46,446 bases of DNA from a virus: IMG/VR virus record IMGVR_UViG_3300035698_016527, positions 1 through 46,446 of that record; one strand, given 5' to 3'. The notes below the pieces were generated by a model. That model saw only the letters and a list, made by a program, of their open reading frames with translations, had not been told where the DNA came from and searched no databases. Made by a program: the position numbers and the translations under genes. The number at the start of each line of letters is the position of its first letter. Positions within the stretch are counted from its first letter, which is position 1. Of this stretch, positions 5,575 to 45,528 are shown in pieces.

Positions 5575-6015
5575 ATGAGACAGAATATCAATAACGGAAT
5601 CACGCACGTGGAAGTAGAGCCGCTCACAGCTTCGCTCAAAGCGTGCTATGGTGCGAGCTACTTCTTAGAAGAACACAAAGCACTTGACCTGCAGCGCACA
5701 CGTATCGTTCGCATCATCGATAAAGAATACTTGGGGCAGTCCAATACATTCATGGATATCCAAACAGAATTATCATCTGTAGATAGTCGCGAGAAGTTCA
5801 GAATGGCAAAGCACAAAATCAAGATAGCATGGGTACAGGACCAGTCCAACCTAGGCGGCGCGGAACTTTCGAACCTCCACGTCATCAAGGTCGGCTTGGA
5901 TTGCGGCTTCGATATCGTACAGGTAACACCTGGACGTTTTAGCAAGGCTATCCTACTTCACAGCGATATCATCATCTTGAATAATATCTTCGAGTTTGAC
6001 AGTAGCGCAATTTGA
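5575..6015 (+). CDS. GT4-type glycosyltransferase, N-terminal half (split gene)
   Basis: The 146-residue frame starts at ATG 5575, preceded by ACACAAGGAAACC. After ~80 unassigned residues it enters a Rossmann-like glycosyltransferase start: KIAWVQDQSNLGGAELSN, then DIVQVTPGRF and HSDIIILNNIFEF. This is the acceptor-side half of GT-B enzymes of family GT4. The frame stops at TGA 6013-6015 exactly where the following frame (from 5996) continues the same fold with FDTLLQVLFGYAKPFIKYDHD. The two are therefore halves of one enzyme separated by a +1 frame change. It may be a recent inactivating insertion, a sequencing error at a T run, or programmed +1 frameshifting at ATT TGA C. Confidence 0.75.
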   Translation: MRQNINNGITHVEVEPLTASLKACYGASYFLEEHKALDLQRTRIVRIIDKEYLGQSNTFMDIQTELSSVDSREKFRMAKHKIKIAWVQDQSNLGGAELSNLHVIKVGLDCGFDIVQVTPGRFSKAILLHSDIIILNNIFEFDSSAI

Positions 6016-6667
6016 CACACTGCTGCAGGTACTCTTCGGATACGCAAAGCCCTTTATCAAATACGACCACGACCTACGAGAACTCAAGCGTATGAATATT
6101 ACGCGCAAGGTCTTCGAGCGTTCTCTCTTCAACGTCTTCATTTCTCCAGCGCACTACGAGATGTACGAAGTCGTGTATGGTAAGAAACTGAAAGAGGTCT
6201 CGCTTGTAACTCCTCTCGCAATCGACACTGATATCTTCTGCGAAGACGATACCGTTACACGCGAGCCGCACTCCGCAATTATTCCTACCTTCGCCAAAGG
6301 TCACGAGGCGCATGCGGTTTTTGTCAACTCGCATCCTGACTGGAAGTTCACTATACTAGGTACACCTCACAGATTCGAAGGCAGTAACATATCAAAGATA
6401 GGTAAAGCGTCGCTTGTACAAATGGCAAACCTCTACCGCAAACACGAGTACATGTTGCATACACCTATACAAAAGGGAGCAGGCGAACGTGTTTACTTTG
6501 AAGCACTCCTCTGTGGATGCAAACCGATTGTAAATGATAACGTCAGTCACATATCGTGGAATACTTCCGCAAACGATATAGAGCAGACACGCAGTTGGTT
6601 AGAGAGAGCACCCTATCAATTCTGGAAGGTAGTCGATGAGCACGCCAAAAACAATTGTCTACTTTAG
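5996..6667 (+). CDS. GT4-type glycosyltransferase, C-terminal half (split gene)
   Basis: The frame is open from TTG 5996 and continues the enzyme begun at 5575. It supplies the end of the first Rossmann domain (KPFIKYDHDLREL, NVFISPAHYEMYE) and the nucleotide-sugar-binding second domain. That includes FTILGTPHR, the loop HTPIQKGAGERVYFEALLCGCKPIVND, which matches the E-x7-E donor-binding region of GT4 enzymes, and a short helical end. There is no ribosome site before the TTG, so independent translation is unlikely. It overlaps the next gene by 32 bases. Donor and acceptor sugars cannot be inferred. Confidence 0.75.
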   Translation: MTVAQFDTLLQVLFGYAKPFIKYDHDLRELKRMNITRKVFERSLFNVFISPAHYEMYEVVYGKKLKEVSLVTPLAIDTDIFCEDDTVTREPHSAIIPTFAKGHEAHAVFVNSHPDWKFTILGTPHRFEGSNISKIGKASLVQMANLYRKHEYMLHTPIQKGAGERVYFEALLCGCKPIVNDNVSHISWNTSANDIEQTRSWLERAPYQFWKVVDEHAKNNCLL

Positions 6668-7559
6668 AAACGGGATAGGCAACTTCATAATGATGACGCC
6701 TGCTATCCGTGCGCTCGCTTCTATGGATGAGAGTGGTAAAGTGGACCTGTGTTTCTGTGAAGACTGGACCGATTCTCGCATGCCTGCAATACGCAATATT
6801 GCAGAGCGGTGGGATATTATAAATCGCGTGATAGTTTACCCAAGAGAACCTATCGCAGGATACTCTCTGTACTTCTGGGTACATCACACTGAAGGCGGTA
6901 AGGCGCTGAACTATTTCATACAGCAGCAGAAACCTCTCTGGCACTTGCAGAAGTGGGAACTAATGCATGAGATAGACTACTATATGGAACACGTCAGGCG
7001 CCTCGGCTACATGGACAGATGTCCTGACCAGTACATACCTGTAGCCGCAGAGCCTATCCTATCCTCAGCGTCGAAGATAATTGCATTTGGTAACGGAGCG
7101 TTCGCATCGAAGATGTGGGACAAGAAACGTTGGCCGCACTTCAACGAACTTGCGAAGACTCTCAAGAACTTCTTTGGTTGTACTATCGTACTAGTTGGCC
7201 ACGGAAAAGAGCTGCACGAAGTCGATAAGAAATATGTCGACTACAATTACGTTGGAGAGCTGTCCATTACAGAGACGGCGAAGGTTCTCCAGCAGGTAGA
7301 CCTATTCGTCACGACTGATTCTGGTAACATGCATATTGCTGATGCTTTACAGACTCCACTGATAGCTCTCTTCGGAGGTACATACCTGAGTAAGAATAGA
7401 CCGGTGAGTCGTAGATCTCTTGTCCTTCGCGTTGGCTATCCGTGTCAGCCGTGTCAGGGTAAGGAGGCGTTTAATACGTGTAAAGATTATAAGTGCATGA
7501 AAGACTTAACAGTTGGAGAAGTTATGCACACTGCTAGAAAGATATTCTCATATGCATAA
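6636..7559 (+). CDS. GT9 (heptosyltransferase-like) glycosyltransferase
   Basis: The 307-residue product matches glycosyltransferase family 9, the ADP-heptose:LPS heptosyltransferase family. It has an N-terminal RNGIGNFIMMTPAIRALAS nucleotide-fold start, a central KIIAFGNGAFASKMWDKKRWP strand and loop, and the donor-binding signature TTDSGNMHIADALQTPLIAL. A Cys-rich CQPCQGK...C...C end is also typical of the family. In bacteria these enzymes add heptose to lipopolysaccharide core. Here the enzyme lies between a GT4 and a sulfotransferase-like gene and close to a Ser-rich repeat protein, so a phage protein or host surface glycan is the likely target. It starts inside the previous frame and overlaps the next gene by 8 bases. 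Confidence 0.85.
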   Translation: MSTPKTIVYFRNGIGNFIMMTPAIRALASMDESGKVDLCFCEDWTDSRMPAIRNIAERWDIINRVIVYPREPIAGYSLYFWVHHTEGGKALNYFIQQQKPLWHLQKWELMHEIDYYMEHVRRLGYMDRCPDQYIPVAAEPILSSASKIIAFGNGAFASKMWDKKRWPHFNELAKTLKNFFGCTIVLVGHGKELHEVDKKYVDYNYVGELSITETAKVLQQVDLFVTTDSGNMHIADALQTPLIALFGGTYLSKNRPVSRRSLVLRVGYPCQPCQGKEAFNTCKDYKCMKDLTVGEVMHTARKIFSYA

Positions 7560-8151
7560 TAACTTCGCTATATCAAGTCTCTCCCGCTGTGGCACAACCT
7601 TCCTAGCTAGAATGATGGATAAGTCGGAAGAGTACCACGTGTACCACGAGCGGGACGAGCATGTTGCCCAGGTTGCAGAGGTACGTGATGTACAGAAGCG
7701 GTTCGCGCGTGAGAAGTATGGAGAAGTCAGTTCACGTTTGCGTTTCGTTCTCCCTCACTTAAAGGTCCGCCTTCGTGGTGCTATCCTGCGAAATCCTTAT
7801 GACGTATTCGTTTCCGTTTGTAATAGGCGCGACGACATGGATGAGTACGTAGATACATTTAGAGAGCAACTCATTACGCTTGAACAGATAGTAGACTGCG
7901 CCGATATACTTATCCGTTTCGAATACATGGTTACGAGCGCTACGTACCTGGACGATATATTGAGACGCTTCGGTATTAACGACGTGCATGTAACTGATGA
8001 ACTCCTTCACGCACGTGTTAACATAAGTAAAGAGTATAAATATCAGTCGTACCGCGAGTTACCCTTACGGTGGCGGAAGCGGTTCGAGGAACTGAGCGAG
8101 TGGTTCATCCTGAAGCACGGTTATGTTATGGCCGCGCCGAAAACATTTTAG
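7552..8151 (+). CDS. sulfotransferase-like protein
   Basis: Starting at ATG 7552, the 199-residue product opens almost directly with ISSLSRCGTTFLARMM. This matches the 5'-phosphosulfate-binding P-loop of PAPS-dependent sulfotransferases (SxSGTTxL). A second motif, RNPYDVFVSVCNR, corresponds to the 3'-phosphate-binding strand-helix (RxPxDxxxS). An in-frame TTG at 7513 would place 13 extra residues before the P-loop and seems less likely. Such enzymes move sulfate from PAPS to hydroxyls of sugars or Tyr. Its place among glycosyltransferases suggests sulfation of a glycan. The family includes P-loop relatives with other donors, so the chemistry is inferred. Confidence 0.7.
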   Translation: MHNNFAISSLSRCGTTFLARMMDKSEEYHVYHERDEHVAQVAEVRDVQKRFAREKYGEVSSRLRFVLPHLKVRLRGAILRNPYDVFVSVCNRRDDMDEYVDTFREQLITLEQIVDCADILIRFEYMVTSATYLDDILRRFGINDVHVTDELLHARVNISKEYKYQSYRELPLRWRKRFEELSEWFILKHGYVMAAPKTF

Positions 8152-8173
8152 GACGCTAACGTAGGAGAATTGC

Positions 8174-10417
8174 ATGTCAACAGTGCAGGGTAGAGTATCA
8201 GTAATTATTGCTGGAAGAAACGAACGGTACTTCAAGCAGACCGTCGAGAGCGTACTCGACCGCGCGAAGGGTGACGTTGAAGTTATTGCTATCGTTGACG
8301 GAGAAGAAGCAGAGCCGCGTGTAGAAATTGCAGACTCACGTGTGAAGGTCAGGCGCCTTGACGAATCAGTAGGCCAACGCACTGCGTACAACTACGGCGT
8401 TTGTGAATCGTGTGGCGAGTTCGTGATGAAGATAGACGCACATGCACTCCTCTCTCCAGGGTTCGACCTCGAGTTGAAGGCAGCGTATCTGAAAGCAGGA
8501 CCGCAGGTGGTCATCCTTCCAGAGATGCGCCGACTAGACGTTAATAAATGGCAACCGAAGAAGACAGGCAAAACTCTCTTCATGTTTCCGGGGTTGGATC
8601 TCTATTGCCATTACTGGCCTGAGTATGCAAAACGCGAGTACGCAAAATACACAGACTACCCTGAAGTCATGACAGGACAAGGTTCCTGCTGGTTCACAAG
8701 CCGCGAGTGGAATAATCACATCGGTCTACTTGATGAGAAGGTCGGCTCGTGGGGTAACGTCGGCATTGAGATATCTCTCCGCACTTGGCTTTGCGGAGGT
8801 CGACAGATTTCCACAAGTAAATGTTGGCAGGCACACTACTTCCGCAAGGACGTCGTGGATGGAGAGACTGGACGCAAGGGATTTCCATACGCGCTCTCTG
8901 GACGTGATGTAGCGAAGGCTCACAAGTACACGTGGAACAACTACTATTTCAAAGACGACGCGTTCGAAAATCAGACGCGGCCATTCAAGTGGTTCATCGA
9001 CCGCTTCGCTCCTGTTCCTGGCTGGGAGGCATACCTGACTGACGGCTTTACTTCTCCCCGCCATATCCTTTACTACACAGACTCGAAGCAAGAGAGTAGT
9101 GGTATCGGCCCGAAGGTTCGCAAGCGTCTCAGGAAGACCTGCGGCCCTATCCCTATCACAACCGTGTCACAAGACGCCTGCAATTTTGGTGAGAAAAATG
9201 TAATACTCGGAGAACAGCCACGGAAATACAAGAGTGTGTACGAAGCAATACGTGCCGGGCTTGAGAAGATACCCGACGATGCTATTGTGTATCTCTGCGA
9301 ACATGATGTGTTTTACCATCCGTCCCACTTCGCTTTCCTTCCTCCAGAGAAGGGCGTCCTCAATTTCAACACTAACCGTTTCTACTATCACCTGAATTGT
9401 GTTAGTTACATTCACGCCAGAGGTAAGCGTACGCTATCGCAGGGAGTAGGTTACAAGCAGGACTGGCTAGCACATGTAAACGAACGCCTTGCGACTGCAG
9501 AAGGCGATATCGTAGAACGTTGGGACGACTGGGAGAGAAGGAGCACAGTGAAGTGCAGGAACTTCGAGAGTGAGCGGCCGAACATAGATATCCTGCATGG
9601 CGACAACCTTACGATGAAGGGTGACTTCAAAAAGAATTACATCAACAATGAAGTCAGGCCGAAGAACAAAGGAATGCTCTCCAAGAACCTTCCCGGATGG
9701 GGAGGCACCACGCACTTTGGTAAGATTACAGGGTATAGGGTGGCCGAGGAGGAGAAACGGGCGCCACAGGCTCCCGCCGGGGCTGTGAATATAGCTACAC
9801 CCTCTTCTGGTACTGCAGACGATAGAGCAGACGCGACGGCCTATCTTTTGAAGAAATACAGCAGGATACTCCCGCAGGTATCTCCAGTGCGGGTCCGCCA
9901 GATGAAACGCTGGCAACTTCCGAAGCTATTCGCAGAGTTGGGATTGAAGCATGGCGCAGAGGTAGGCGTCAGAGATGGTAAATTCAGCCGGCGTATCTGT
10001 GAGTGCATTCCTGATGTAAAGTTGATATGTGTCGACCCGTGGGGAGCGTACTACCACTTCGATGATAAGTACGGCGAAGCGAATTATCACAAGGCGCAAG
10101 CGCGTCTCGCAGATTTTGATTGCACTCTCATTCGGAAGATAGGACAAGATGGAGCGCTGGAGGTTCCTGATAACTCGCTCGACTTCGTTTACCTTGACGG
10201 TGACCATAGATTTGACTGGGTGATGGAAGACATCATTACGTGGTCCCGCAAGGTGCGTCCAGGTGGTATCGTTTCAGGGCACGATTATTACCGATTCAGA
10301 AACAGTGGTGTAGTCCCTGCCGTAGACGTTTACACGTACCAACACAGCATACCGAATTGGTTTATCACCGATGAGAAAGAGGCATCTTTCTTTTGGGTGA
10401 AGCCGCAGGAGAAATAA
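8174..10417 (+). CDS. GT2 glycosyltransferase - second GT-like domain - methyltransferase fusion
   Basis: The 747-residue product has three parts. Residues 1-~250 are a GT-A family 2 domain: VSVIIAGRNERYFKQTVESV, VIAIVDGE, then FVMKIDAHALLSPGFD as the metal-binding region. Residues ~300-480 look like another nucleotide-sugar-transferase-type domain (IVYLCEHDVFYHP, a D-x-D-like EHDVF). Residues ~580-747 form a class I SAM methyltransferase of the Methyltransf_24 type, with HGAEVGVRDGKFSRRI, LICVDPWG, DFVYLDGDHRF and RPGGIVSGHDYY. The gene likely transfers a sugar and then methylates the glycan. It starts after TAGGAGA and its stop directly abuts the ATG of the repeat protein, suggesting tight coupling with that substrate candidate. 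Confidence 0.85.
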   Translation: MSTVQGRVSVIIAGRNERYFKQTVESVLDRAKGDVEVIAIVDGEEAEPRVEIADSRVKVRRLDESVGQRTAYNYGVCESCGEFVMKIDAHALLSPGFDLELKAAYLKAGPQVVILPEMRRLDVNKWQPKKTGKTLFMFPGLDLYCHYWPEYAKREYAKYTDYPEVMTGQGSCWFTSREWNNHIGLLDEKVGSWGNVGIEISLRTWLCGGRQISTSKCWQAHYFRKDVVDGETGRKGFPYALSGRDVAKAHKYTWNNYYFKDDAFENQTRPFKWFIDRFAPVPGWEAYLTDGFTSPRHILYYTDSKQESSGIGPKVRKRLRKTCGPIPITTVSQDACNFGEKNVILGEQPRKYKSVYEAIRAGLEKIPDDAIVYLCEHDVFYHPSHFAFLPPEKGVLNFNTNRFYYHLNCVSYIHARGKRTLSQGVGYKQDWLAHVNERLATAEGDIVERWDDWERRSTVKCRNFESERPNIDILHGDNLTMKGDFKKNYINNEVRPKNKGMLSKNLPGWGGTTHFGKITGYRVAEEEKRAPQAPAGAVNIATPSSGTADDRADATAYLLKKYSRILPQVSPVRVRQMKRWQLPKLFAELGLKHGAEVGVRDGKFSRRICECIPDVKLICVDPWGAYYHFDDKYGEANYHKAQARLADFDCTLIRKIGQDGALEVPDNSLDFVYLDGDHRFDWVMEDIITWSRKVRPGGIVSGHDYYRFRNSGVVPAVDVYTYQHSIPNWFITDEKEASFFWVKPQEK

Positions 10418-34366: not shown

Positions 34367-34939
34367 ATGGGAAAGCGGAAGAAGAAAGCCTACGACCCAG
34401 TTGAAGAAGTTATGCAATGCAGGAAGTGCGGACTTGCAAAGACGAGACGGCACGTCGCGGCTTGCCGCATCATCGGTTCTACTCCAGCGAAGGTTCTCAT
34501 TATCGGAGCTGCGCCGAGCCGCAGTGATGATTTGAAAGGTAGAGCATTTGCAGGTCCGGATGGCAAACTGATGGAGTACCTTCTCAGAGAAGCGGGCGCG
34601 CCCAGTTCCATCCTGCTGGTAAACTCCGTGTGCTGCATTCCCTGTGAGAGCAGAGGAGGTGAGGAGAGGGAAGCTACGGCGGCCGAAGTACTAACTTGCA
34701 GGGCAAATATTGCCGCGCTTATCCGGGAGCTATCGGCCCCACAGCTAGTCTTCTTCCTCGGCCCTATCGCAGAGAGGTTCTGGCGGAAGGAGTATCCAAA
34801 GGGAGTTACCCTGCGGAACCCTGCTGACCTCCTCAAAACAGGTGGGAATGCCTCTCCAGGATACCCCGGGCAGGTGAGGCTACTGGAATCTATGTTTGCC
34901 GCCCTCTCGGAGCCTCGTCCTGGGCGGATAGCTACCTAG
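34367..34939 (+). CDS. uracil-DNA glycosylase-like protein (type 4/5 superfamily)
   Basis: The 190-residue product starts at ATG 34367 after AGGAG. It keeps the layout of Fe-S type-4 uracil-DNA glycosylases: Cys18 and Cys21 (CRKC), a motif-1 region VLIIGAAPSRSDDLKGRAFA, further Cys near 89-93 and Cys111, and LVFFLGPIAERFW. Yet motif 1 is GAAPS where GEAPG is usual, and the HPS-type motif 2 is replaced by NPADLL (~151). Altered chemistry, a binding-only role or a different substrate is possible. In a phage with a DNA base-modification enzyme it may discriminate modified bases. Confidence 0.65.
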   Translation: MGKRKKKAYDPVEEVMQCRKCGLAKTRRHVAACRIIGSTPAKVLIIGAAPSRSDDLKGRAFAGPDGKLMEYLLREAGAPSSILLVNSVCCIPCESRGGEEREATAAEVLTCRANIAALIRELSAPQLVFFLGPIAERFWRKEYPKGVTLRNPADLLKTGGNASPGYPGQVRLLESMFAALSEPRPGRIAT

Positions 34940-39969: not shown

Positions 39970-41971
39970 AGCGGTCGACGTCCGGGCTTTCGTGCAACAC
40001 GGGTTTATCCAGCAGTCAGAGACGCGTGACCACGTTGGAGGTCGATGTCCTTTCTGTAGTAAAGACGGACACTTTGCAATTAACGTGAGCACACATGCGT
40101 GGGATTGCAAACGATGCGGAGTGAGCGGAGGTTTCCAAACATTCCTGCGTCAGATTAGTGATAGGAATATAGCGGAGTTCAAAAGACAACCTGCTATTGC
40201 CCTCTCCAAGAATCGGGGTATACCGATAAGCACGCTCCGCAGTTGGGACGTAGGCTATAATCCTGCAACTGGTGGGTACAGCATACCAATCTACGATTGC
40301 GGCGATACGAAACGCCTGCACGATTTGAGGTACTATACAATCGGAAAGGACACGAGGTCGACAGCGACATGCTCACTCGGATTACTCGGGTGGGAGAAGC
40401 TAGGTGAGACGAAGGAGGTCTGGGTATGCGAAGGAGAGTGGGACTGCATCGCTCTCAGTGAGCACCTGGACAATGCGGTAGTAGTGGGCACGCCTGGAGC
40501 TGGTACGTTCAAGATGGAGTGGGCGCGACTCTTCGAAGACAAGGACGTTATCTTCGCATACGATAATGACGAACCTGGAAGAGTGGGAGCAATCAAAGCC
40601 CACAACACAGTCGCTCCATTAGCACGCACGGTACGGCATATCAAATGGAAAGAGGACACGCCTGAGAAGTATGATGTGCGGGACCAATGTGCTGCAAATA
40701 AGCGAGGCGCTGTAAAGAGTTTACGCGCGCTCTTCGACGACACGCCTGCTCCTGCTGAGAATGAGAAGGTGGTTGTGAATACTAGCAAGCCTGAGGAGGT
40801 AGTCTATGAAGGCAACGGACTGCGGGCAGAGACGCTCTACAAGCACTTCACAAAGTGGTTGCATCTTCCCGATACTATGTGCCTTGATGCTATCTTCGGC
40901 ACGGTGATAGCTAATAGGCAACCGGGCGACCCACTGTGGCTATTCCTTGTAGCTCCGCCAGGAGGAACGAAAACAGAACCTCTCCTTGCTCTCAGTGATT
41001 CGCTAGGTATCATTTGTAAATCGTCACTATCCGCAAAGTCGCTTGTGTCGGGACAGATAGTCAGTGGAGGTGTTGACCCTTCCCTGCTGCCGCGGTTAAA
41101 CGGAAAGGTACTTATCATAAAGGATTTCACAACCGTGTTATCTATGCCTCAGATATGGCGAGAGGAAGTCTTCGGCATATTGCGAGACGCATACGATGGT
41201 AAGTTCGAGCGTGACTACGGTAACGGAGTGTTTCGGAAGTATGAAACCTCCTTCGGTATCATAGCTGGAGTTACCCCAGCGATAGAACATTACTCTGAAG
41301 GGTGCTCTGCTCTTGGCGAAAGATTTCTATCGTACCACATGCCGATAGCAAGAGGTATCCGCGCACGTAGGAAGTTTATCGAACGTGCACAGGCGAACGT
41401 AGGTAAAGAGGAGGAGATGAAAGACGAACTTCGCTCAGCTGCGAAGCGCTGTCTCGACTACGCCTTCGATGAACCGTGCTCTATGCCTGTGGATATTGCT
41501 GGGAAGATAATCGACCTCGCTCAGGTAACGTCACAGATGCGTGGAGTAGTCGCACGTGATAGATTTACAAAAGATATTACGCATCGTGCGTATGCTGAGC
41601 TAGGTACACGATTAGTGAAGCAGCTTACAAAGTTAGCCGTAGGGATAGCAAAGTTCAGACGGTCAGATGTTGTAGGCTTGCGCGAGTATCAGGTACTCGA
41701 GAGAATAGCCCGAGGTTCGATGCCCTCTGGGGCAAAGGCGGCTATCGAATCGATGGTACTGAAGACTGAGAAGGAAGGGTGGACAACCAAGGAACTCTCT
41801 GAGATTATTGGACTGCCGCCGTTTCCTACTACAGATAGAATCATGCAGAACCTTCACCTGCTTGGCGTAGTTAGACGCGCGCGTGGTGTGGTTGCGACTA
41901 CTAATCACTGGACGCTTGAGGACGAGTTCCTGGAAGCGGCAATAAATGCAGAGGTATTCGATGGCAGCTAA
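39932..41971 (+). CDS. primase-helicase with zinc finger, TOPRIM and AAA+-like domains
   Basis: The 679-residue product starts at ATG 39932 after AAGGAG with 7-base spacing. It begins with a basic tail (MATKKRKARPEGKA), then a CHC2-type zinc finger (CPFCSKDGHFAINV, CKRCGVSGGF). A TOPRIM-like domain follows with VCEGEWDCIAL (~166) and FAYDNDEPGR (~210). A C-terminal ATPase-like region holds FLVAPPGGTKTEPLLAL (~340-349, a P-loop variant with GGTKTE) and LNGKVLIIKDFTTV. The layout matches phage primases that make RNA primers and load on DNA. A helical winged-helix-like end is present. It pairs with the polymerase A upstream. Confidence 0.8.
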   Translation: MATKKRKARPEGKAVDVRAFVQHGFIQQSETRDHVGGRCPFCSKDGHFAINVSTHAWDCKRCGVSGGFQTFLRQISDRNIAEFKRQPAIALSKNRGIPISTLRSWDVGYNPATGGYSIPIYDCGDTKRLHDLRYYTIGKDTRSTATCSLGLLGWEKLGETKEVWVCEGEWDCIALSEHLDNAVVVGTPGAGTFKMEWARLFEDKDVIFAYDNDEPGRVGAIKAHNTVAPLARTVRHIKWKEDTPEKYDVRDQCAANKRGAVKSLRALFDDTPAPAENEKVVVNTSKPEEVVYEGNGLRAETLYKHFTKWLHLPDTMCLDAIFGTVIANRQPGDPLWLFLVAPPGGTKTEPLLALSDSLGIICKSSLSAKSLVSGQIVSGGVDPSLLPRLNGKVLIIKDFTTVLSMPQIWREEVFGILRDAYDGKFERDYGNGVFRKYETSFGIIAGVTPAIEHYSEGCSALGERFLSYHMPIARGIRARRKFIERAQANVGKEEEMKDELRSAAKRCLDYAFDEPCSMPVDIAGKIIDLAQVTSQMRGVVARDRFTKDITHRAYAELGTRLVKQLTKLAVGIAKFRRSDVVGLREYQVLERIARGSMPSGAKAAIESMVLKTEKEGWTTKELSEIIGLPPFPTTDRIMQNLHLLGVVRRARGVVATTNHWTLEDEFLEAAINAEVFDGS

Positions 41972-43529
41972 GAAGAGGAAGAAGGACGCAGGCGCATTAC
42001 CTATACGTACAGCAATGCGTGGTGCGATTGAGAATGTTCCTATTGGTAAACTGAAGCTATGGGCCAAGAACCCAAGGAAGAACGATAAGGCAGCACCGAA
42101 GCTGGCCAAGCTTTTGAAGGAGCATGGACAGCAGTCGCCTATCGTCGCATGGGCAAAGGACCGTGTTGTTTACAAGGGAAATACAACCTTGAAGGCAGCA
42201 AGGCTACTCGGATGGAAAGAGATACGCGTGCTCTGGGCGGACTTCCCTAGTGAGACTGCGGCTATTGCCTACGGCATCGCAGATAATAAGAGTAGTGAGT
42301 TCGCAGACTGGGATGGAGAAGTACTGGCTTCCATCATGGAGTCCGAATCTATTGACGCGTCAATGGTAGGATTTGAGGAAAATGATATCAGGATAGGTCA
42401 AATCTCAGCTACCGTGTCAGATGATTCCAAGGCGCTGCTTCGGGCCGCTCATGAGCTTAGCGGGAGCGCCAGAGGGCAGCTTAATGGAATCGGGCTATAC
42501 CGAGAGGGCTATCTGTGGGCAACGAACCTTGAGGTGTTTATCGGCGTGAAGGTTGGCCTGGGTATCGTAACCGAAGGGCTGTACGATCTCTCCCTCCTTA
42601 TTCGTGGCGTACAGGGTACGAAATGCAAGTACCCAAAGCAGGTTGAGTTTCCTTCTCTCCCTTTGAAACATGTGACACCTGCGACCTTCAAGGATGCTCA
42701 GGACATTCAAGACCTCGCGCCCTTCGTGCAGTTTGCCTATCCCAGAGAGCAGCGCCCCATGTTGTACGGTGCTCAGGTAGTCAAGGGAACGCTCTATGCG
42801 TCAGACGGAGCCTGGGGCGCTTTCTGTCCGTATAAGATTGCAGACGGACGCTCTCTTCAGATACGTGCTGAAGGTCTTCGCTCGCTCGGCGGATTACTGG
42901 CAAAGACTACGAAGGTTATGGTAGGAAAAAAGTGGGTGACTCTTGCCTCTGAGGACGGGTCTGTAGTTCTCTGCAGTAAACTCGATGACTCGCTTGCGTA
43001 TGTCGATATCAACAAGGCTATACCGAAGGGCAGGAAGTTTACAGCTATCCCTGATGACTTTGTGGACGCAGTAGCAGAGTGTCAGCAGATAAATAATTCG
43101 GTGGTGAACCTTCCTATCCTATCCGATAAAGAGCTGACGCTTGTTGATGTGGATAACCACCGGAAGTTTATCTGGAAGCACAGTCTTCGCATGAAGCCTG
43201 GGAGGAAGTACGGTGTCAATGCACATAGGCTTCATCAGATTCTCTGCACAGGCGCTACTGGTATCGCGGCTGAAGGTACGCTCGACCCAATACTCTTCTC
43301 TGTAAGCGAATCCAATCTCCAGTTCCTGCTGATGCCGATTACTTTAGCGAACGTACCTGATGTGAAGAAAGTGATAGTTATGAAGCCACCTATCCAGGAC
43401 GAGAAGGATGCGCAAACGCACACGTGTGTCCAGCAGTCAGGTATCTACAGTATTGGTATTACGCTAAAGACTACACGTGGCATGGATGCGTCGTTCGTCT
43501 CGAAACTATTCCTGCAGAAGGAGATCTGA
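41961..43529 (+). CDS. ParB-like domain fused to sliding-clamp-like (DnaN) domain
   Basis: The 522-residue product starts at ATG 41961 after AGAGG and overlaps the primase stop. Residues ~25-110 are a ParB/Srx-type domain: VPIGKLKLWAKNPRKND, SPIVAWAKDRVVYKGNTTLK, AARLLGWKEI. Residues ~250-460 look like two domains of a DNA sliding clamp: REQRPMLYGAQVVKGTLYAS followed by DGAWGAFCP, IRAEGLRSLGGLL, TAIPDDFVDAVAECQQ, and the clamp-like ending SESNLQFLLMPI. A phage clamp would tether the polymerase. Fusion to ParB is, to my knowledge, unusual. An ordinary clamp of this size works as a trimer. Confidence 0.7.
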   Translation: MAAKKRKKDAGALPIRTAMRGAIENVPIGKLKLWAKNPRKNDKAAPKLAKLLKEHGQQSPIVAWAKDRVVYKGNTTLKAARLLGWKEIRVLWADFPSETAAIAYGIADNKSSEFADWDGEVLASIMESESIDASMVGFEENDIRIGQISATVSDDSKALLRAAHELSGSARGQLNGIGLYREGYLWATNLEVFIGVKVGLGIVTEGLYDLSLLIRGVQGTKCKYPKQVEFPSLPLKHVTPATFKDAQDIQDLAPFVQFAYPREQRPMLYGAQVVKGTLYASDGAWGAFCPYKIADGRSLQIRAEGLRSLGGLLAKTTKVMVGKKWVTLASEDGSVVLCSKLDDSLAYVDINKAIPKGRKFTAIPDDFVDAVAECQQINNSVVNLPILSDKELTLVDVDNHRKFIWKHSLRMKPGRKYGVNAHRLHQILCTGATGIAAEGTLDPILFSVSESNLQFLLMPITLANVPDVKKVIVMKPPIQDEKDAQTHTCVQQSGIYSIGITLKTTRGMDASFVSKLFLQKEI

Positions 43530-43533
43530 AAGC

Positions 43534-43866
43534 ATGGCAAAGAAGCTGAGAAAAAAGAAACCCCAAGACGTTACTCCAGAAGAGAAGAAGGAGCGCAACG
43601 AACAGACGGCGCTCTTCTCCTCAGAGGAATGGTGGGAAAAAGATTGGGAAGGAATGCCTGAGTACGCGCAGGAAGATATTATGGCATTCAAGTCGTTGTT
43701 GGTTCACTTCGACCGCGTGGAAGACTTGCAGGCGTTTGCGAAGTTAGTCGACCAGCCCATCAATACGACAACGAAGTTCATGTGGTATCCGAAGGCCGCG
43801 ATATCTCGCATCACAGATAGACGGTACGTAGATAGGAAGAAGGGAGGGCGTAGTGGAACTCGGTAA
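43534..43866 (+). CDS. small conserved-looking phage protein, 110 aa
   Basis: The 110-residue product starts at ATG 43534 after AAGGAGAT. Its first 40 residues are highly charged and disordered (KKLRKKKPQDVTPEEKKERN). The rest includes LLVHFDRVEDLQAFAKLVDQ and TTKFMWYPKAAISR. A short protein with an FA-x2-h-Q ... W-Y-P pattern is often found near ParB-type and DNA-modification genes in phages, but I cannot name a function. It overlaps the methyltransferase start by 14 bases. Confidence 0.55.
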   Translation: MAKKLRKKKPQDVTPEEKKERNEQTALFSSEEWWEKDWEGMPEYAQEDIMAFKSLLVHFDRVEDLQAFAKLVDQPINTTTKFMWYPKAAISRITDRRYVDRKKGGRSGTR

Positions 43867-44662
43867 CCTCAGAAGTCAGTTCGACCTCTTCTCTTCTCTC
43901 TGCGGTTTGCTCTTCATGGTAGATGAGAGTATGCTCGCTGATAGGATTAAAGAGATGGAGCGGACAGAACTCTTCGACCTATCCGCAGGAGGTCCGGCGA
44001 TAGAGCGCTGGTACGCCTCCCTGGAGGCTGGAGAGCCTGACTACAACCTCTACCTTGCGGACTATTACATCCTTCAGGCGTGGCTCTCCTGGAAGCACTA
44101 CAGTCGTGGGTATGTTAAGTTCATTCAGAAGCACCCGGACCTCTTCAAGGATGTGCTTAACGTTATCGACTACGGCTGCGGTCTCGGTATCTCTACGTTT
44201 ATGTTGGGTGAGACCTTTACAGATGCCAAAGTATACGGCACGAACCTCGCGCTCTCAAAGCAGATTCAGTTCGCGCGTGCGGTTACAAAGGAGAAGAGGA
44301 ACACCACTATCGTAGGAAGTCGCAGCAATAAGCTACCGTCGTACTGCGACCTCGCTTTCTGCAGTGAATACTTTGAGCACTTCGAACGTCCGATAGAACA
44401 CCTGAGAGAAATCATAGCCAGTAGTTCGCCGCGGATATTCCTTATTGCGAACGCATTTGGTGCGCGTTCTGTAGGACATTTCGAAGTCTACTACGATAGG
44501 AAGTCTACCTATGATAAGTCGAGTATCGTCCGCGCTTTTAACGGAGAGCTACAGGCGAGCGGCTATCTGAAGGTGAAGCATGATGGATGGAATAATAGAC
44601 CGTCTATCTACGTGCGTGAAGCTGTAGCAAATGCACAGCTCAACTTCACAGGGAGGTCATGA
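43853..44662 (+). CDS. SAM-dependent methyltransferase in DNA-modification locus
   Basis: The 269-residue product starts at GTG 43853 after GAAGGGAGGGC. A helical cap (~1-90) precedes a class I methyltransferase: VLNVIDYGCGLGISTFMLGE (SAM-binding motif I), AKVYGTNLALSKQIQFARAV, CDLAFCSEYFEHFERPIEHL and SPRIFLIANAFG. It has no visible PCQ or DPPY motif of standard C5 or N6 DNA methylases, so a small-molecule, sugar or hypermodified-base target is likelier. It overlaps the TAGT glycosyltransferase start, which suggests joint action on a DNA base or its sugar. Confidence 0.7.
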   Translation: MELGNLRSQFDLFSSLCGLLFMVDESMLADRIKEMERTELFDLSAGGPAIERWYASLEAGEPDYNLYLADYYILQAWLSWKHYSRGYVKFIQKHPDLFKDVLNVIDYGCGLGISTFMLGETFTDAKVYGTNLALSKQIQFARAVTKEKRNTTIVGSRSNKLPSYCDLAFCSEYFEHFERPIEHLREIIASSSPRIFLIANAFGARSVGHFEVYYDRKSTYDKSSIVRAFNGELQASGYLKVKHDGWNNRPSIYVREAVANAQLNFTGRS

Positions 44663-45528
44663 TGAATCCTAAATACCCTGTGTATGTTATTTCGAAAGGT
44701 AGATGGGAAACCAGGCTGACTAGTAAAGCACTCGAGCGGATGCATGTTCCATACTCTATCGTAGTCGAGCCGCAGGAGTATGATGAGTATGCCTCCGTTA
44801 TCGACCCGAAGAAGATACTTGTGTTGCCCTTCAGTAACCTCGGCCAAGGTTCTATCCCAGCGAGGAACTGGGTGTGGGAACACTCGCTATCTATCGGAGC
44901 GAAGCGCCATTGGATTCTGGATGATAACCTCAAGATGTTCTTTCGGTTCAACAGGAACGAAACTACGCCTGTGACTTCTGGGACTATCTTCAGGTGCGCC
45001 GAGGATATGGTTGACCGTTATGTAAATGTTGGTATCTCCGGGTTCCAATACTACATGTTCATAACTCGCAAGCGGAAGATATCTGCACCGTTCATTTTGA
45101 ATACGCGAGTCTACTCGTGCATACTTATTCAGAATGATATTCCTTACCGATGGCGTGGAAGGTATAACGAAGATACCGACCTATCTCTTCGCGCGTTAAA
45201 AGATGGGTGGTGTACGATACTCTTCAATGCGTATCTTGCTCTGAAGATAACGACGATGACGATGAAGGGTGGGAACACAGAGCAGCTTTATGAAATAGAG
45301 GACGGCAGGTTGAAGATGGCAAAGTCGCTGCAGGACCAGCATCCCGATGTTGTGTCTATCGCTCGCAGGTGGAATAGGTGGCAGCACAAAGTTGACTACT
45401 CTGCGTTCCGTAAGAACGTACTTGTAAGGAAGAAGGGTGTAATTATCAAGCCAGGTATAAACGATTATGGTATGCAGTTACAAATGCTCCGCGACGACCG
45501 CTGGGTGAATACCAAGGAAGGAGAATAG
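44662..45528 (+). CDS. TET-associated-type glycosyltransferase (TAGT), DNA base modification
   Basis: Preferred start is ATG 44662, five bases after GGGAGG, giving 288 residues; ATG 44659 overlaps the previous stop. The sequence reads like the TAGT/GREB1-associated glycosyltransferase family: KYPVYVISKGRWETRL, VEPQEYDEY, GQGSIPARNWVWEHS, RHWILDDNLKMFF, RWRGRYNEDTDLSLRALKDG and TMTMKGGN. Family members in phages are predicted to add sugars to hydroxymethylated DNA bases that a TET/JBP-type oxygenase makes, hiding the DNA from host nucleases. No oxygenase is visible in the window and it may lie outside it. The adjacent methyltransferase and ParB-like gene support this role. Confidence 0.75.
   Translation: MNPKYPVYVISKGRWETRLTSKALERMHVPYSIVVEPQEYDEYASVIDPKKILVLPFSNLGQGSIPARNWVWEHSLSIGAKRHWILDDNLKMFFRFNRNETTPVTSGTIFRCAEDMVDRYVNVGISGFQYYMFITRKRKISAPFILNTRVYSCILIQNDIPYRWRGRYNEDTDLSLRALKDGWCTILFNAYLALKITTMTMKGGNTEQLYEIEDGRLKMAKSLQDQHPDVVSIARRWNRWQHKVDYSAFRKNVLVRKKGVIIKPGINDYGMQLQMLRDDRWVNTKEGE

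Follow-up and report, generated by a model that had tools for sequence, protein, structure and literature searches.

A TAGT glycosyltransferase with a near-invariable partner domain in phages: a candidate TET-independent module for DNA glycosylation

A small domain of about 65 residues is the near-invariable partner of one clade of TAGT (TET-associated glycosyltransferase) proteins encoded by phages. With moderate confidence we read the locus described here as a TET-independent TAGT module, which would glycosylate phage DNA via a dedicated adaptor and whose methyltransferase would tailor the transferred sugar. The analysed stretch of DNA (the window) is the whole IMG/VR record IMGVR_UViG_3300035698_016527 with a length of 46,446 bases. 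Since the record is classed as linear, the window is probably a genome fragment from which parts are likely missing.

The module comprises three adjacent open reading frames (ORFs), all on the plus strand, between positions 43534 and 45528. The first (43534..43866) encodes the partner protein of 110 amino acids, recognised as an ORF with a conserved WxxMPEF...VHF/VRF...IWYP domain at about residues 38-97. The second (43853..44662), which opens with GTG, encodes a class I SAM-dependent methyltransferase (MTase) of 269 amino acids, and the third (44659..45528) a GT-A/GT2-like TAGT of 289 amino acids. Hereby, the small gene and the MTase gene overlap by 14 bases, the MTase and TAGT genes share an ATGA overlap, and the Shine-Dalgarno-like sequences AAGGAG and GGGAGG precede the ATG of the small gene and that of the TAGT gene, respectively. 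The gene order and the translational coupling proposed in the initial annotation are thus confirmed, while the TAGT ORF opens at 44659, the position 44662 given earlier being that of the second Met. The window also contains genes for portal, capsid, helicase, uracil-DNA glycosylase (UDG), nuclease, a Sak4-like protein, polymerase A and primase. The UDG superfamily gene lies at 34367-34939 in the replication region (PF03167, E = 1e-15), and weakly similar genes occur in two related loci (L005, L006). A separate glycosyltransferase cluster at 5996-10417 is situated among the structural genes, right after the major capsid gene. It contains a GT9-type gene (6636-7559; PF01075, E = 5e-26), a GT2 domain fused to Methyltransf_24 (8174-10417), a weak third glycosyltransferase (5996-6667) and a weak sulfotransferase-like match (7513-8151), and possibly serves virion-protein glycosylation.

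Judged by its sequence, the 44659-45528 ORF is a genuine TAGT family member. The Pfam profile PF20691 (TAGT) is matched over its full length (1-205 of 205) with 158 bits (E = 3.9e-46; cut-off 27.5), which rules out that the match is a weak one, and PHROG 842 (phrog_842, 'beta-glucosyl-HMC-alpha-glucosyltransferase') matches with E = 4e-44. The four blocks on which the family assignment had originally been based (RNWVWEHS, HWILDDN, YNEDTDLSLR and TMKGGN) are all present in the ORF. An alignment of 49 TAGTs, including those of the phages T6 and P12024L, shows W85, D88, D89, D172 and G204 to be invariant, and the window protein retains W85, D88-D89, E171-D172 and G204-G205, i.e. the DxD-like and acidic motifs of GT-A enzymes. 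As these catalytic positions are intact, the protein is most likely an active transferase. In a tree of the 49 sequences, the partner-bearing TAGTs split from P12024L and from the second TAGT copies of two related loci (L035, L056; support 97/99); T6 forms a very long branch whose placement is not possible.

A scan of IMG/VR with the window TAGT returned 56 related loci with 45-74% identity, ruling out that the module is unique to the window contig. These loci lie in otherwise mostly unrelated phages, in which hardly any other window gene, the small protein excepted, has a homologue. When 84,980 genomes of bacteria and archaea were scanned twice with exact-peptide patterns, which distant prophage copies may escape, no relative turned up of either the TAGT or its partner; this absence is consistent with a lytic-phage module. 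The recognisable neighbours in the relatives, read by eye from their sequences, mainly belong to replication and recombination (DUF1376-like initiator, ERF, YqaJ, NinB, DNA polymerase, UvsX/RecA, terminase), a placement that recurs in several unrelated phage groups. Portal and head genes flank the module in Vibrio phage 1.076.O.

The partner domain is present at all 56 IMG/VR loci, of which 54 were recognised by tblastn and two (L047, L048) by HMM. A reverse scan, for which a single partner sequence served as query and the TAGT was ignored, yielded 80 loci. A TAGT adjoins the partner in 77 of them; the remaining three contigs (L090, L115, L133) stop at this point. All 35 TAGT clusters obtained at 70% identity from 140 loci likewise carry the domain, but this set was partly gathered via the partner itself, so that the one-way counts, 56/56 and 77/80, give the fair measure. 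A chance neighbour is ruled out by the reverse scan together with the clusters. The initial annotation had described the small protein as conserved-looking and had missed that this protein, not an oxygenase, is the near-constant companion of the TAGT.

The consensus of the domain reads WxxMPEFxQE...VHF/VRF...F..L..Q..T.KTKSIWYP; among 68 sequences, W38, M41 and P42 are invariant and E43, F44, F59, F68, Q74, W84 and P86 are conserved to at least 90%. Comparison with Pfam, NCBIfam, PHROGs and the PDB gave chance-level matches only and no named family, and PDB sequence searches with the partner and with the TAGT were empty or at chance level. The AlphaFold2 model of the partner has a core (residues 51-80) with pLDDT values of 94-97, for which Foldseek returned no PDB fold match. 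One related locus (L093, 3522-4003) carries two tandem copies of the domain ahead of the TAGT.

The domain occurs in three forms, namely as a stand-alone protein, fused to the N-terminus of the TAGT, and fused to the C-terminus of a ParB-like domain. The TAGT fusion is seen in four IMG/VR loci (L005, L006, L010, L114) and in the phages Aeh1, 65, POP12, PTm1, 1.124.O and 1.076.O, and the ParB-like fusion in about 13 of the 35 clusters. Phrog_620, a ParB-like family, was detected in 13/13 tested fused loci versus 0/10 unfused ones, and additionally in L007, L055 and the window, so that 13+2 loci besides the window have a ParB-like domain joined to the small one. In the window, the ParB-like domain resides in a separate plus-strand ORF directly upstream of the small gene (41946..43529; 527 amino acids; phrog_620, E = 1.7e-26) and is not fused. 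It spans about residues 24-149, with the phrog_620 match at 42015-42392 and further matches to other ParB-like PHROGs, while the C-terminal part of about 380 residues has no Pfam or PDB match. By eye, the last ~100 residues look like the C-terminus of a sliding clamp (LQFLLMPITL). The partner nearly always stands adjacent to the TAGT, and follows it in T4-like marine contigs. In a group of such contigs (L035-L057, e.g. L039, L044, L049), the order is TAGT, partner and a second, divergent TAGT beside a gene for DNA polymerase; genes resembling those for UDP-glucose dehydrogenase and GDP-mannose dehydratase lie close by.

Since the domain is near-invariable and is repeatedly fused both to the TAGT and to ParB-like domains, we read it as an adaptor. 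In the mechanism that we favour, the TAGT would take a sugar from a nucleotide-sugar donor and attach it to an acceptor that is most likely phage DNA, either while the DNA replicates or afterwards. The WxxMPEF...IWYP domain would serve as a dedicated docking adaptor for the transferase, with a fused or adjacent ParB-like domain recruiting the complex to DNA in many phages. The position between the adaptor and TAGT genes would constitute an exchangeable tailoring slot, and the MTase that fills it in the window would probably O-methylate the transferred sugar. DNA is, in our estimate, the probable acceptor because of the ParB-like fusions and the replication and recombination neighbours. Several observations count against this explanation as a whole: no base-hydroxylating enzyme was found in the searches described below, the MTase family also occurs without a TAGT, the module of 1.076.O is placed among head genes, and the partner model had no counterpart among PDB folds.

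The first of these points is the main difficulty for DNA as acceptor, as an enzyme that makes the acceptor would be expected. None of the profiles PF12851 (TET/JBP), PF00145 (C5-MTase) and PF00303 (thymidylate synthase/hydroxymethylase) is matched in the 46,446-base window, in line with the earlier statement that oxygenase and hydroxymethyl-nucleotide genes are missing from the window. A conventional pathway could account for this if TET/JBP oxidation, or a hydroxymethyl-dNMP route, were encoded in an unsequenced part of the genome and the TAGT then glucosylated the product as in T6 or P12024L. As the window is a probable fragment, such genes could lie elsewhere; TET/JBP adjoins the TAGT in P12024L and gp42 adjoins ggt in T6, and a C5-MTase is present in 3 of 42 related records. 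In Tenacibaculum phage PTm1, one of the phages with the partner-TAGT fusion, a second, weak PF00303 match (NC_049340.1, 123231-123866; E = 1.5e-10) that contains an internal stop could moreover be a deoxynucleotide hydroxymethylase. However, PF12851 was absent from all 42 related records (window included) and from 36 more, so that none of 78 records of the clade, five complete isolate genomes among them, has a match, although the same profile detects the TET/JBP adjacent to the TAGT of phage P12024L with E = 2.8e-29. In the complete isolate genomes, which offer the strictest test, Aeh1, 65, 12B8 and POP12 each show a single convincing PF00303 protein, which is td-like, whereas the same search finds both td and gp42 in T6 (gp42 at 1.7e-16). 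Petrov et al. 2010 (PMC2993671) state for Aeh1 and 65 that genes 42 and 56 are absent, and regard a major cytosine modification as improbable in T4 relatives that lack gene 42, which also counts against the explanation favoured here. Finally, the TAGT of P12024L, which is encoded next to a TET/JBP gene, has no partner domain. We therefore regard the conventional pathway as quite improbable. Of the TET-pathway reading put forward initially, the TAGT family and the module hold, but the TET/JBP or hydroxymethylase companion expected elsewhere in the genome is not supported. Of the T-even glucosyltransferases, PF11440 (alpha-glucosyltransferase) was absent in 19 records with a positive T6 control; the search for PF09198 (beta-glucosyltransferase) ran without a positive control.

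The lack of an acceptor-making enzyme in these searches would also be expected if the sugar were transferred to a phage or host protein or to another molecule, with the partner being the acceptor itself or a substrate adaptor. The position of the module between portal and head genes in 1.076.O could fit a protein target, a small and near-invariable partner is what a dedicated substrate or adaptor might look like, and the TAGT fold group is a sister to ordinary GT2 enzymes (PMC13216743). On the other hand, the clade is homologous to TAGTs that act on DNA, the ParB-like fusions are repeated, and placement with replication and recombination genes recurs in unrelated phage groups. A non-DNA acceptor thus appears unlikely, and we retain DNA glycosylation via a dedicated adaptor as the preferred reading.

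The gene in the slot between partner and TAGT varies. A homologue of the window MTase fills it in four related loci (L003, L031, L104, L105), and in a fifth (L100) the window-type MTase is joined by an FkbM methyltransferase (PF05050, E = 8e-7). L101 and L102 hold a nucleotide-sugar epimerase there (phrog_540, E = 4e-56), and L056 and L091 a second TAGT-like glycosyltransferase, while in L087 the MTase homologue directly follows the TAGT. MTase-bearing TAGTs are closer to MTase-less ones (L003 and L056, 86% identity; L031 and L030, 74%), which argues that the slot gene has been gained or lost repeatedly and independently of the TAGT. Every slot gene would make sense as a sugar-tailoring function.

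Profile matches place the window MTase itself no more precisely than in class I (Methyltransf_23, PF13489, E = 2.9e-7; PF08241), and its motifs include DYGCGLG, FCSEYFEH, GHF and WNNRP. Its AlphaFold2 model (pLDDT 82) has small-molecule O-methyltransferases and tRNA methyltransferases as nearest folds, with TM values of 0.4-0.5. Homologues without a TAGT occur in two further loci (L146, L147), so that this type of MTase also exists outside TAGT modules. The operons concerned (L146, 3445-6720; L147, 6013-9200) contain ThyX-like (PF02511 in L146), thymidylate-kinase-like and UDG genes as well as genes for a nucleotide-sugar epimerase and an FAD-dependent oxidoreductase, and look like a nucleotide-level pyrimidine modification pathway. 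It is accordingly quite possible, without being the probable case, that the window MTase has no part in sugar tailoring, being instead an unrelated passenger or an enzyme that methylates bases or RNA: it adjoins the TAGT in just 7 of about 140 loci, its TAGT-free homologues have genes for a ThyX-like protein, a dNMP kinase and UDG as neighbours, and its structural neighbours include the tRNA methyltransferase MnmM. Against this, the MTase recurs in the same slot though the TAGTs beside it are not nearest relatives, the remaining slot genes (FkbM methyltransferase, epimerase, glycosyltransferase) are sugar-related, and reading the alignment of the MTase homologues revealed no DPPY/NPPY or C5 PC motif. 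We therefore keep to sugar tailoring, in which the sugar would be the methyl acceptor of the window MTase. The methylated sugar suggested in the initial annotation gains indirect support from the slot, which in other phages often holds sugar-tailoring genes, but the sugar as substrate of this particular MTase is presumed.

As a TAGT match the locus is ordinary; it is less so as a TET-independent partner-TAGT module whose small domain has no family name and whose slot would serve sugar tailoring. Solitary TAGTs, i.e. those without an alpha- or beta-glucosyltransferase, were described in a 2026 paper in 288 of 753 glycosyltransferase-bearing phage genomes with no function assigned (PMC13216743). 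One large clade of these now gains a near-invariable partner, fusions that suggest recruitment to DNA, and an exchangeable tailoring slot. Should the acceptor prove to be DNA, with neither TET nor hydroxymethylase involved, the module would represent a novel route to glycosylated bases; otherwise, a large family carries a mistaken annotation as DNA-modifying. More broadly, and only tentatively, the clade might stand for a widespread, phage-only DNA glycosylation without a known base-hydroxylating enzyme, in which the partner, often ParB-fused, would make or present the acceptor and the slot gene would diversify the sugar. The module is carried by complete-genome isolates, namely Aeh1, 65, POP12 and henriette 12B8.

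Compared to known systems, the window TAGT shares PF20691 with the Ggt enzymes of T6 and T2, in which the equivalents of W85, D88, D89 and D172 are conserved, at about 15% identity to T6 Ggt. T6 Ggt adds glucose to alpha-glucosyl-hmC in DNA (PMC13216743); it acts as a second glucosyltransferase after the alpha-glucosyltransferase, on hmC made by gp42. In contrast, the window clade is without alpha-glucosyltransferase and shows no convincing gp42 in Aeh1, 65, 12B8 and POP12, and it possesses the partner domain that T6 lacks. Nonlabens phage P12024L, with its operon of TET/JBP, TAGT and DNA MTase, likewise has a TAGT of the same family beside a methyltransferase gene. However, this TAGT has about 23-26% identity and falls outside the partner-bearing clade, and the window clade differs in all three of its other features, i.e. 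the adjacent TET/JBP, the MTase with a DPPY motif and the missing partner domain. The ParB-like domains belong to the same family as those of phage DNA-modification proteins (phrog_498, phrog_620); phrog_498-type domains head DNA-methyltransferase proteins in phages, whereas here the domain is fused to the partner and the enzyme served would be a glycosyltransferase. A further comparison is offered by the solitary TAGTs of the Aeromonas phages Aeh1, 65, phiAS5 and Ah1, which a table crediting Iyer 2013 lists, the Aeh1 protein among them, as glucosyl transferases for an 'unknown base' (PMC8056088). These proteins belong to the window clade with 46-49% identity and carry the partner domain, which, unlike in the window, is fused to the TAGT N-terminus with no MTase in the slot.
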